Source: Candidatus Brocadia sinica JPN1 | GTDB lineage: Bacteria; Planctomycetota; Brocadiia; Brocadiales; Brocadiaceae | Reading direction: 5' to 3' | Length of the DNA stretch: 64,000 nt | NCBI RefSeq assembly: GCF_000949635.1 | Contig: NZ_BAFN01000001.1 | Location: forward strand, 3,283,052-3,347,051 | Shown: one piece after another, positions 42,122 to 55,549 of the stretch | Layout of the letters: the number at the start of each line of letters is the position of its first letter | Numbering within the stretch: position 1 is the first letter of the stretch | Notes under the pieces: model-generated | What the model saw: only the letters and a program-made list of their open reading frames with translations | Database searches by the model: none | What the model was told of the DNA's origin: nothing | Program-made: the position numbers and the translations under genes

Positions 42122-42484
42122 GTGTGCGGTAATCGATACTTTAGCCGTATCAAATTTGCGGCTCACGCTCAAATTGAATGTAATAAGGCGATCCATAAAT
42201 TGGAATTGCTGGATATATCTTTACGAGGTGCATTGTTGCATTCCCCAACGTCTCTTCCTGTAAAAATAGGCACGAGTTGTTTATTAAAAATATACCTTCA
42301 TGCGTCACATATTACATTGACGTTTCATGCGGAGCTCGTCCATCTCAATAAAAAGAATCTGGGATTGAAATTTCTAGATGCAGACATAGATACCATGACG
42401 CATCTGAGAAACCTGCTTGGCTATAATACAGGTAATCCTGACCAAATCACCCATGAACTTCATTTCTGGCTGGATTCTGTATGA
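42122..42484 (+). CDS. PilZ domain c-di-GMP-binding protein
   Basis: A 120-residue single-domain protein. The binding signature is RYFSR (RxxxR, residues 5-9) and DISLRGALLH (the D/NxSxxG motif), followed by beta strands and LGLKFLDADIDTMTHLRNLL. It should be a receptor for cyclic di-GMP. The start is GTG at 42122, which keeps the RxxxR at the N-terminus. The target process is not known; a c-di-GMP riboswitch candidate lies 10 kb away. Confidence 0.85.
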   Translation: MCGNRYFSRIKFAAHAQIECNKAIHKLELLDISLRGALLHSPTSLPVKIGTSCLLKIYLHASHITLTFHAELVHLNKKNLGLKFLDADIDTMTHLRNLLGYNTGNPDQITHELHFWLDSV

Positions 42485-52228: not shown

Positions 52229-52628
52229 ATTCTACCTCCATTTCACCAATAAACATCAAGATAGTTACCAAACAGCGATCTGTCAAGAAAATATAAGGCT
52301 AAGTCTGTTGCAAAAGTATATGAGCATATTGTGCGCTTAAAAAAGGAATGTTCATCTACCCCCTTATTTTCTATTGATTTCTTGAAAGTTAATAGCTATA
52401 TTGAACCGATGTAATTATTCAGCCAAAATGAAACTTTGCAATAAGAATGCACCCTTTAATTGTTTGACTGAGCGTTCACGATGAAGTTGTCTCCCGTAAG
52501 AATGGGTGGATGTAATTATATTCTCTTCGGCTAACAAAACTATAATTCCTCAAACTTTTTTAGTTTTGCCTTCATTCAGGCTATATAGTATTATTTTTAA
52601 AAAAATAGAGTCACAGAATACATCGCGA

Positions 52629-52750
52629 TAAAGGTAAACCCTGAGCAATCAGGGGACGCAAAGTAAAGGGTCTTAGCTAAAAAATGGTTTAAACGGTCGA
52701 ACGGTTTAAACCGTTTAAGCGGCTAAAAATAAGACAGCCTTACTGCCGAA
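52629..52750 (+). promoter_or_regulatory. Candidate c-di-GMP-I (GEMM) riboswitch
   Basis: The order of conserved elements fits the GEMM-I aptamer: AAGGTAAACC (52631-52640), a short hairpin, then GGGGACGCAAAG (52652-52663) and GGGTCTTA (52668-52675), a long AT-rich stem (52676-52730) closed by TAAGAC, and the 3' part AGCC-TTACT-GCCGA (52736-52749). The 3' strand overlaps the left arm of a perfect 11-bp terminator-like stem, the usual expression platform. It ends 163 bases before a large secreted-protein gene. The family identification is by eye. Confidence 0.8.
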
Positions 52751-52790
52751 GATGTTTTATATGGTATCTTTGCAGTAAGGCTTTATTGTT
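52736..52790 (+). terminator. Expression-platform terminator hairpin of the riboswitch
   Basis: AGCCTTACTGC (52736-52746) pairs perfectly with GCAGTAAGGCT (52772-52782), with an inner AAGAT/ATCTT stem, and TTTATTGTTC follows. The left arm is shared with the aptamer's 3' side, so ligand binding should decide whether it forms. Confidence 0.75.
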
Positions 52791-52912
52791 CTAAAGATAT
52801 TTATGAAAAAGCATTCGCATACTGTAGCCATATCTTTTATGGAAAACGTGAAGTCGACTAATCATTATTACAAAAACCACCCCCTTAACGTCAGAAAGGA
52901 GGCAGAAAGGTT

Positions 52913-55549
52913 ATGAAAAACATATCTTTTGTCCCTATCCAGGTCAAGTTTAGCATTCTTTCGTGCATAGCGATTTTCTTTTCACTGGTATTGACCGCTA
53001 GCAATACTTCATTGGCATCTGTAGTCCCCCAACTAGCAGGGGGAGGACATCATAGTCTTGTATTGAAACCAGACGGTACAGTCTGGGCATGGGGACGCAA
53101 TGATTTTGGCCAATTAGGTAACGGTACCACCAGCGACAGTACAATTCCCATACAGGTAAATACCGTCCCGGGAAAGACAGGTAATTTTAACGGTATCACC
53201 GCTATAGCTGGTGGTTGGTCTTACAGTGTAGCCCTAAAATTCGATGGTACGGTCTGGGGATGGGGAAGGAATGATTTTGGCCAATTGGGTAACGGAACTA
53301 CCAATGATAGCGCTGTTCCCGTACAGGTAAACAATCTTAGCGATGCTGCTGCCCTTGCTGGCGGAGGATTTCACGGTCTTGCCCTGAGGTCGGATGGCAC
53401 AGTCTGGGGATGGGGAAGGAATGATTTTGGCCAATTGGGTAACGGAACTACCAATGATAGCGCTGCCCCCGTACAGGTAAGCAATCTTAGCGATGTTGCT
53501 GCCCTTGCTGGCGGAGGATTTCACAGCCTTGCCCTAAAGTCGGATGGCACAGTCTGGGGATGGGGAAGGAATGATTTTGGCCAATTGGGTAACGGAACTA
53601 CCAATGATAGCGCTACCCCCGTACAGGTAAGCAATCTTAGCGATGTTGCTGCCCTTGCTGGCGGAAGATTTCACAGCCTTGCCCTAAAGTCGGATGGTAC
53701 GGTCTGGGCATGGGGACAAAATGATTCCGGTCAATTGGGTAATGGAACCGCCGGTAATAGTACAGTACCTGGACAAGTGAAGAATCTTAGTAATGTCATT
53801 GCCATTGAACGTGGGCGTTCTCACAGTCTGGCTGCAAAATCAGACGGTACGGTTTGGGGATGGGGAGATAACTCTTATGGACAACTCGGGAACGGAGCGA
53901 CTAGTAATAGTACAGTCCCTGTTCAGGTAAAGAATCTGAGTGATGTTGCCGTTATTGGAGGCGGAGGATTTCATAGTCTTGGATTAAAATCTGAAGGTAC
54001 GGTATGGGCTTGGGGACGAAATAACTCTGGTCAACTGGGAGACGGGACTACCAAAGACAGCGCTATCCCTGTACAAGTTTTTATTGACCTGTCGATTGAA
54101 ACGGGTAATATTGCTGGTGTTGTGAAAGATGCAACAATTGGGGCAGGCATTAATAATGCGACAGTTACACTTGATGATCAAAGTAATACAACCACTACGA
54201 GCAGGATTCGGGGGCAAGATGGAGTGTATAAATTCCGTGATGTATCTGCCGGAAACCATACTCTATCAGTGCAGGCAACTGGTTTTGAGACGGGTACACA
54301 ATCCATTACGGTAGAGAAAGGGCAGCCAAATCCAAAAACAGGAAGAAATATTTTTAACTTTGCCCTAATCTCCACGGCGTTCCCAACACCTACACCCACA
54401 CCCGGAACAGGCAATCTCGGAGGGCAGGTAACGGACGTAGGGACAGGGGGAGGCATTGTTGGCGCGACGGTATCGACCGATACGGGGCTTACAACCACTA
54501 CAGTCAAAAACGGCGCCTACGCATTCCGCAACATTGCCGCCGGAGATTACACACTTACTGCGTCTGCAACAGGCTATACATCTGCATCCCAGTCTGCTAC
54601 GGTAACAACAGGCAAGAACACCAGGGCTGATTTCGCATTGACATCTGGAGGGACGCCCACACCAACGCCTGGGACAGGTAACCTTGGCGGTCAGGTAACG
54701 GACGTGGGAACAGGAGGAGGCATTGTTGGCGCGACGGTATCGACCGATACGGGGCTTACAACCACTACAGTCAAAAACGGCGCCTACGCATTCCGCAACA
54801 TTGCCACCGGAGATTACACACTTACTGCGTCTGCAACAGGCTATACATCTGCATCCCAGTCTGCTACGGTAACAACAGGCAAGAACACCAGGGCTGATTT
54901 TGCATTGATATCTGGAGGGACGCCCACACCTACACCAACGCCTGCACAGACCCCAACACCAGGAACAGGCAATCTCGCGGGACAGGTGACAGACACCGGG
55001 ACAGGGGCAGGTATTGTTGGCGCAACGGTATCGACCGATACAGGACTCACAACCACAACGGTTAAAAATGGTATTTATACATTTCGTGACATAACCGCAG
55101 GTGACTACATTCTTACGGTATTTGCAACGGGTTATGGGCTGGCTTCTCAGTCTGCAACCGTTGTTGCAGGTAAAAACACACGGGCTGATTTTGCTTTGAT
55201 ACCAGAAATACCCACGCCAACACCAGAAGCAACCCCAACACCAACATGCGAAGCTGACCTGTTAGTGGCGTCTTCAAAAAGACTAAGATTACAAACAGAG
55301 GAAAGCGCCGAAGAAACAATAACGGTGTTCTGTGAGAACGATATCCCTCTTGCAGGCGAAACGATAACGTGGAAGATTAAGTCTGGTAGAAAACGGATAA
55401 CGATTACACCTGACAGTGCCGTAACAAACGCTAACGGCGAGGCCAGATTCACGATTACAGCTACAGACAGGATCGGTGATGCAAAGATCAAATTCGAAGG
55501 TGAATCAGCCGATCTAAAGACAACAGTAACCGTAAAGGTTATAGAGTAA
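52913..55549 (+). CDS. Large secreted RCC1-repeat protein with carboxypeptidase-regulatory-like and Ig-like domains
   Basis: An 878-residue exported protein. A signal peptide (about 1-35) is followed by seven RCC1 blades (GTVWGWGRNDFGQLGNGTT type), about 40-390, forming one beta-propeller. Four carboxypeptidase-regulatory-like domains (GNLGGQVTDVGTGGGIVGAT type) follow, joined by TPTPTP linkers, then a C-terminal Ig-like (Big_1) domain ending in TTVTVKVIE. The build is that of a surface adhesin or matrix protein. A strong ribosome-binding site (AAAGGAGG) and the upstream c-di-GMP riboswitch candidate fit biofilm control. No sorting signal is obvious. Confidence 0.9.
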   Translation: MKNISFVPIQVKFSILSCIAIFFSLVLTASNTSLASVVPQLAGGGHHSLVLKPDGTVWAWGRNDFGQLGNGTTSDSTIPIQVNTVPGKTGNFNGITAIAGGWSYSVALKFDGTVWGWGRNDFGQLGNGTTNDSAVPVQVNNLSDAAALAGGGFHGLALRSDGTVWGWGRNDFGQLGNGTTNDSAAPVQVSNLSDVAALAGGGFHSLALKSDGTVWGWGRNDFGQLGNGTTNDSATPVQVSNLSDVAALAGGRFHSLALKSDGTVWAWGQNDSGQLGNGTAGNSTVPGQVKNLSNVIAIERGRSHSLAAKSDGTVWGWGDNSYGQLGNGATSNSTVPVQVKNLSDVAVIGGGGFHSLGLKSEGTVWAWGRNNSGQLGDGTTKDSAIPVQVFIDLSIETGNIAGVVKDATIGAGINNATVTLDDQSNTTTTSRIRGQDGVYKFRDVSAGNHTLSVQATGFETGTQSITVEKGQPNPKTGRNIFNFALISTAFPTPTPTPGTGNLGGQVTDVGTGGGIVGATVSTDTGLTTTTVKNGAYAFRNIAAGDYTLTASATGYTSASQSATVTTGKNTRADFALTSGGTPTPTPGTGNLGGQVTDVGTGGGIVGATVSTDTGLTTTTVKNGAYAFRNIATGDYTLTASATGYTSASQSATVTTGKNTRADFALISGGTPTPTPTPAQTPTPGTGNLAGQVTDTGTGAGIVGATVSTDTGLTTTTVKNGIYTFRDITAGDYILTVFATGYGLASQSATVVAGKNTRADFALIPEIPTPTPEATPTPTCEADLLVASSKRLRLQTEESAEETITVFCENDIPLAGETITWKIKSGRKRITITPDSAVTNANGEARFTITATDRIGDAKIKFEGESADLKTTVTVKVIE
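53240..53690 (+). repeat. Three near-identical 150-bp tandem repeats (RCC1 blades)
   Basis: Units start near 53251, 53401 and 53551 and are almost identical at the DNA level (for example GGAAGGAATGATTTTGGCC in each), with the flanking blades more diverged. Recent duplication is likely. Confidence 0.85.
54409..54930 (+). repeat. Two near-identical 267-bp repeats (carboxypeptidase-regulatory-like domains)
   Basis: The unit near 54421 recurs at a spacing of 267 bp near 54688 with only a few differences. A third, diverged unit follows near 54979. The linkers vary in TP repeat number. Confidence 0.85.

Follow-up and report, generated by a model that had tools for sequence, protein, structure and literature searches.

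A predicted c-di-GMP-I riboswitch attenuator before the gene of a secreted RCC1-propeller protein in Candidatus Brocadia sinica, within a genome-wide set of similar switches

The stretch of Candidatus Brocadia sinica DNA analysed here (the window, 64,000 nt) carries a c-di-GMP-I class aptamer at 52624-52751 of the + strand. Judged from its sequence and predicted folds, the element is very probably a transcription attenuator that turns ON the gene behind it, the product of which is a probable surface or matrix adhesin. The element itself is a further member of an already known riboswitch class; the interesting part is the scale of the regulon to which it belongs.

The aptamer was identified with covariance models. 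The only riboswitch found by cmscan in the whole window was a match to RF03167 (c-di-GMP-I-GGC; 64.9 bits against a gathering threshold of 59, E 4.6e-13) at 52624-52751 (+). A preliminary description of this DNA had noted GEMM-I-like aptamer motifs and proposed a search with the parent family, RF01051, as a check; the motifs are present at these positions, and RF01051 scored 63.1 bits at the same place (gathering 35). Other Rfam matches in the leader (miRNA families, aspC, Pistol and others) lay far below gathering and were ignored. In the pair list of the fold, all on the + strand as are the other features of the leader, P1 joins 52626-27 with 52747-48, P2 joins 52634-35 with 52658-59 and 52639-44 with 52649-54 and is capped by a GCAA tetraloop of the GNRA type (52645-52648), and P3 runs from 52662 to 52744. 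No pair and no pocket base is lost in the window copy. A longer P1 (ACAUC with GAUGU) can be drawn for many copies, but across the copies it pairs barely better than shuffles do (49 of 2000 reach it) and it is not claimed. The P1/P2/P3 architecture, the GNRA loop on P2, the G20/A47/C92 pocket and the position ahead of surface- and signalling-protein genes are shared with known RF01051 switches; the differences are a P3 tip lengthened by a 9-nt repeat, a P3a (AGTAA-AGG/CCTTACT) nearly copied by the 3' arm of the terminator, and a very high copy number with one platform in common.

The bases G52633, A52660 and C52746 were taken to be the equivalents of G20, A47 and C92 of the Vc2 structure. G52633 is the last base of J1/2 (model alignment and tally), A52660 directly follows P2 (mismatch column of the alignment and tally), and C52746, which is unpaired in the aptamer fold, directly precedes the 3' strand of P1 and is the last base of the terminator 5' arm (alignment and competing folds). 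By pattern tally, pocket G/A/C was read in 51 of the 58 copies of this genome and in 43 of 44 copies from relatives; in three further own copies A and C were read and position 20 was missed by the pattern, and the remaining own copies are degenerate. The RF03167 consensus has G (GACGCGAA) at the A47 equivalent, whereas the window copy has A52660 in an unmatched column, and essentially all copies of the genome have A there. RF03167 thus gives an above-gathering score to the window copy and 33 others in the genome and ranks first, but since A stands at the A47 equivalent, where the variant has the G for which it appears to be named, the window copy is not of the 'GGC' type.

Riboswitches for 3',3'-cGAMP (c-AMP-GMP; GEMM-Ib) have the same fold, and these variants reportedly carry A at position 20; that feature is absent here, where 52633 is G. 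A G20/A47/C92 pocket, with neither the G47 of GGC nor the A20 of the cGAMP type, makes c-di-GMP the expected ligand. Sensing of another cyclic dinucleotide such as 3',3'-cGAMP has a precedent in Geobacter, where some GEMM-I switches prefer cGAMP (PMC8683041, PMC7266159), and Rfam does place the variant model RF03167 above RF01051; it is nevertheless quite unlikely, because position 20 is G, the other two pocket positions, A47 and C92, also match c-di-GMP sensors, and the G at 47 characteristic of RF03167 ('GGC') is missing. Two other copies (L096 and L094, at 568047-568159 and 3789578-3789716 of contig C1 of the genome, G000) have A and U at the position-20 equivalent; these are either degenerate or altered in ligand preference, A20 being the cGAMP type.

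The tip of P3 (52676..52729) is an AT-rich insert with a 9-nt interspersed repeat of the GTTTAAAC type, located by pattern count. The pattern GTTTAAACNGTTTAA has 96 matches in the genome against 5 for a reversed control, and many of them lie in riboswitch P3 tips. The P3 arm had been described as unusually long and AT-rich; the tip is indeed long and AT-rich, but it is usual for this genome, in which the aptamer span has a median of 113 nt (range 77-148; copies measured in other genera, 77-110 nt). The periodic repeat (GTTYAARCN, often GTTTAAAC), which fills the P3 tips of many riboswitches, is also found in intergenic arrays elsewhere, for example L240 (G000:C1:370200-374600), and is sometimes read into ORF ends to give LNGLNGLN-like peptides. 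A separate 18-nt string, ACCTTACTGCTGAAGATA, occurs exactly at seven places (G000:C1 60093, 302105, 305784, 1817180, 2670956, 2889717 and 3987221); it is unrelated to the switches and is probably part of a multicopy mobile element.

Upstream of 52630, about 30 nt before the aptamer, a consensus scan found a promoter-like site, TTGCCT-N17-TATTAT (52566..52594). The match is weak taken alone; sites matching at least 9 of 12 positions within 75 nt upstream were found for 30 of the 58 copies, against 24% of shuffles, and 52566-52594 is a putative promoter.

The strand AGCCTTACTGC (52736..52746) belongs to two competing folds, serving in the aptamer as the 3' side of P3, J3/1 and C92, and in the terminator as the 5' arm. 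The terminator 3' arm, GCAGTAAGGCT (52772-52782), is followed by the T-rich tail TTATTGTT, the two together occupying 52772..52790. A perfect 11-bp terminator-like stem with a nested inner stem had been reported to overlap the aptamer, and this proved exact: AGCCUUACUGC (52736-52746) pairs without mismatch with GCAGUAAGGCU (52772-52782) around a nested 9-bp upper stem (52748-52756 with 52763-52771; with its loop, 52748..52771). The hairpin folds at -23.6 kcal/mol (z -5.43; 0 of 200 shuffles equally good) and the whole leader at z -6.94. A simple terminator scan overlooked this + strand hairpin, the stem and loop of which lie beyond the limits of the scan; it was found by direct folding.

When the transcript was folded by length, the aptamer fold stayed within 2.6 kcal/mol of the best fold from 52754 to 52770, and once the terminator 3' arm was transcribed the terminator was favoured by 17-19 kcal/mol. 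That arm (AGTAAGG) nearly repeats the 5' strand of P3 (AGTAAAGG), a strand-exchange design. Through the shared strand 52736-52746 the expression platform and the folded aptamer are mutually exclusive: because the terminator recruits the P3 3' strand and C92, a ligand-bound aptamer would exclude it, read-through would be expected, and a transcriptional ON switch is predicted. In the proposed sequence of events RNA polymerase would start near 52600 and the aptamer would fold first; c-di-GMP, expected to contact G52633, A52660 and C52746, would lock P3 and P1, and the locked aptamer would keep strand 52736-52746, so that transcription would continue into the gene. With no ligand, arm 52772-52782 would displace the P3 5' strand, and the strong hairpin with its T-rich tail would stop transcription. 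More c-di-GMP would then mean more of the secreted RCC1-propeller protein, a putative adhesin. The sign and the kinetics of the switch are those suggested by the fold model.

An OFF switch, or control through translation or RNA stability in place of termination, is unlikely, with some points in its favour. The own copies L042 and L046 are without a terminator and adjoin a ribosome-binding site, so other platforms exist in the genome, and the T-tract of the window copy (TTATTGTT) is imperfect, being poorer than that of most copies (TTTTTGTT), so that termination may be leaky. The terminator is, on the other hand, built on aptamer bases including C92, both here and in 53 other copies, and ligand binding should for that reason prevent its formation. 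Two of its pairs are changed on both sides across the copies; compensatory changes are few because the copies are nearly identical.

The gene placed under this predicted ON control (52913..55549, +) is preceded by a strong Shine-Dalgarno-like AAAGGAGG (52895..52902), 10 nt before the ATG. It encodes a protein of 878 aa with a signal-peptide-like N-terminus, an RCC1 propeller, CarboxypepD_reg repeats and a C-terminal Big_1-like domain; Pfam recognized seven RCC1 and four CarboxypepD_reg stretches, in agreement with the secreted RCC1/carboxypeptidase-regulatory-like protein of 878 residues that had been described. An ORF at about 1.31 Mb of G000:C1 matches the protein over residues 473-876, which align with 1151-1561 of the ORF (37% identity, E 8e-52). 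Read from its MKRPK start, this ORF (L239:3495-8189, -) has a length of 1552; its repeats begin close to 1258 and 1359, and its C-terminal part begins at 1451. The S-layer/matrix protein of Ca. Brocadia sinica, BROSI_A1236 (PMC7482068, PMC10202920), has repeats at 1254-1338 and 1354-1439 and was studied with a C-terminal construct of 1448-1551 (PMC7482068). These positions fit, and the ORF is therefore likely to be BROSI_A1236.

The repeats and C-terminus of BROSI_A1236 bind each other and its disordered region condenses (PMC7482068). Both proteins have CarboxypepD_reg-type repeats and a C-terminal domain in the aligned segment; the 878-aa protein differs in the RCC1 propeller placed in front. 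From this homology the 878-aa protein may act as a surface or matrix adhesin, the production of which c-di-GMP would raise, and it is plausibly a partner in the same matrix as BROSI_A1236. No c-di-GMP riboswitch was found before BROSI_A1236 in the 11 kb read around that gene. Its C-terminal domain is common to many proteins across Brocadia genomes (many matches to residues 766-876 of the window protein) and is perhaps a common surface-attachment domain.

The switch is conserved before the orthologous gene. A c-di-GMP-I switch precedes the closest relative in all three of the other Brocadia genomes for which the region upstream could be read (L117, from Ca. Brocadia sp. BIN37, L181 and L182); two further orthologues, L180 and L183, start at contig ends and were left out of this count. 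The overlapping terminator is present in all three leaders, and in the alignment the aptamer core and terminator are kept while the P3 tip has completely diverged. None of 15 other loci with RCC1 relatives, mostly outside Brocadia and several with little upstream sequence, had a c-di-GMP switch above gathering, so that control of this gene by the switch looks like a Brocadia trait. The leader might instead be a decaying copy, in which aptamer and hairpin are left from a duplication and regulation is lost; the many near-identical copies fit duplication, and some own copies (L094, L095, L097) are clearly degenerate. Decay is very unlikely for the window copy, given its intact pairs and pocket and the retention of the switch before the orthologue in three other genomes despite full divergence of the P3 tip. 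The preliminary description had proposed that a matrix or adhesion protein is controlled by c-di-GMP at the RNA level, and this prediction is now supported by the covariance models, the pocket bases, the exclusive terminator, the position and strand, the orthologue leaders and the homology to BROSI_A1236. It had also pointed to a PilZ receptor 10 kb away; a PilZ domain does lie at 42134-42418, but it is one of several and has little bearing on the switch.

The genome (4,077,002 bases, 3 contigs) was searched for further copies. RF03167 gave 58 matches, 34 of them above gathering, and RF01051 gave 56, with 55 above gathering; with up to 2 mismatches allowed, the pattern of the strand shared by aptamer and terminator led back to these sites and to practically nothing else. 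An overlapping terminator was found in 54 of the 58 copies, the others being L042 and L046, with a different platform adjoining the ribosome-binding site, and the degraded L094 and L095. That the window motif is a chance resemblance has nothing in its favour except the prior; this reading, of negligible probability, is already refuted by the score (E 4.6e-13 in the window), by the 58 copies, mostly with one platform, and by their co-orientation with genes.

Eleven Brocadia genomes hold 20-56 c-di-GMP-I copies each and other genera of the family 1-28; a phylum-wide count, with at most 10 candidates scored per genome, gives presence and not size. The regulons of Geobacter relatives are also rich in copies, 38 genomes from the family of a Geobacteraceae MAG having 6-40 each; at an equal threshold Brocadia goes up to 56, and most of its copies follow a single attenuator design. 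A second Brocadia subclass with a short P3, no terminator and a position near the ribosome-binding site (L042, L046, L199, which is in tandem, L201, L202 and L205) probably acts in translational control. Close pairs of switches, about 0.5-1.6 kb apart and some before one gene (L093/L095, L069/L078, L068/L073 and L094/L098), possibly provide tandem control.

At 50 of 52 loci the first ORF with a length of 100 aa or more lies on the strand of the switch. By a simple home-made rule, 27 of the 50 downstream genes have a secretion signal; among 163 other ORFs the number is 17 (odds ratio 10, p 6e-10). Pfam assigned surface-protein domains to downstream products (Laminin_G_3, FG-GAP, PKD, beta-helix, SBBP, DUF11, Kelch and RHS), together with a contractile sheath (L052), sigma-54 regulators (L047, L060), radical SAM and PqqD proteins (L061, L078), a Wzm/Wzt-type ABC exporter (L067), a UTP-glucose-1-phosphate uridylyltransferase (L045), cytochrome domains (L049, L055), cell-wall amidases (L079, L087) and a caspase-like peptidase (L092). 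The genome has 17 GGDEF and 9 PilZ matches. The switches L047 and L052 (G000:C1:1907295 and 1909803) stand 2.5 kb apart, before the sigma-54 response regulator and the contractile sheath gene, and c-di-GMP control of a contractile injection-like system is possible. Locus L097 (G000:C1:2104850-2104937, gene to about 2109470) has a degenerate aptamer with an intact extended terminator; the gene behind it encodes a response-regulator/PAS/GAF protein, in an open frame ending in GGDEF, and former or weak feedback on c-di-GMP synthesis is possible.

No papers on c-di-GMP riboswitches in anammox bacteria were found in a literature search that stopped short of key riboswitch surveys, in which copies may already be listed; the Brocadia scale, the single common platform and the connection with a matrix-protein module were likewise not found in the literature searched, those surveys being outside it. 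With nearly 60 switches, mostly of one plan, a single signal could set off an entire surface and biofilm programme. A wider reading, offered tentatively as possible but somewhat less than probable, is that a single c-di-GMP regulon working at the RNA level governs most of the surface programme of Brocadia. Its attenuators, more than 50 and nearly identical, would have multiplied by duplication inside the genus, would together give a coordinated ON command for biofilm, and would make up the largest set for a single riboswitch class yet recorded in a genome. The programme so meant, held with the same reserve, would take in matrix proteins, the contractile sheath system, polysaccharide export, cell-wall amidases and sigma-54 regulators.

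Anammox bacteria grow as granules, and the lack of a genetic system for them has kept the control of their matrix out of reach. A c-di-GMP-I regulon that can be read from sequence supplies about 50 candidate biofilm genes in one step, and is testable with in vitro RNA and with existing metatranscriptomes (leader against gene coverage). According to work cited in PMC11224092, as that article relates it, c-di-GMP goes up together with matrix polymers in granular sludge, anammox sludge among it; the switch set would be a direct route by which the increase so related could happen. The 878-aa protein links the switch to a type of protein with adhesive behaviour measured in Ca. Brocadia sinica.
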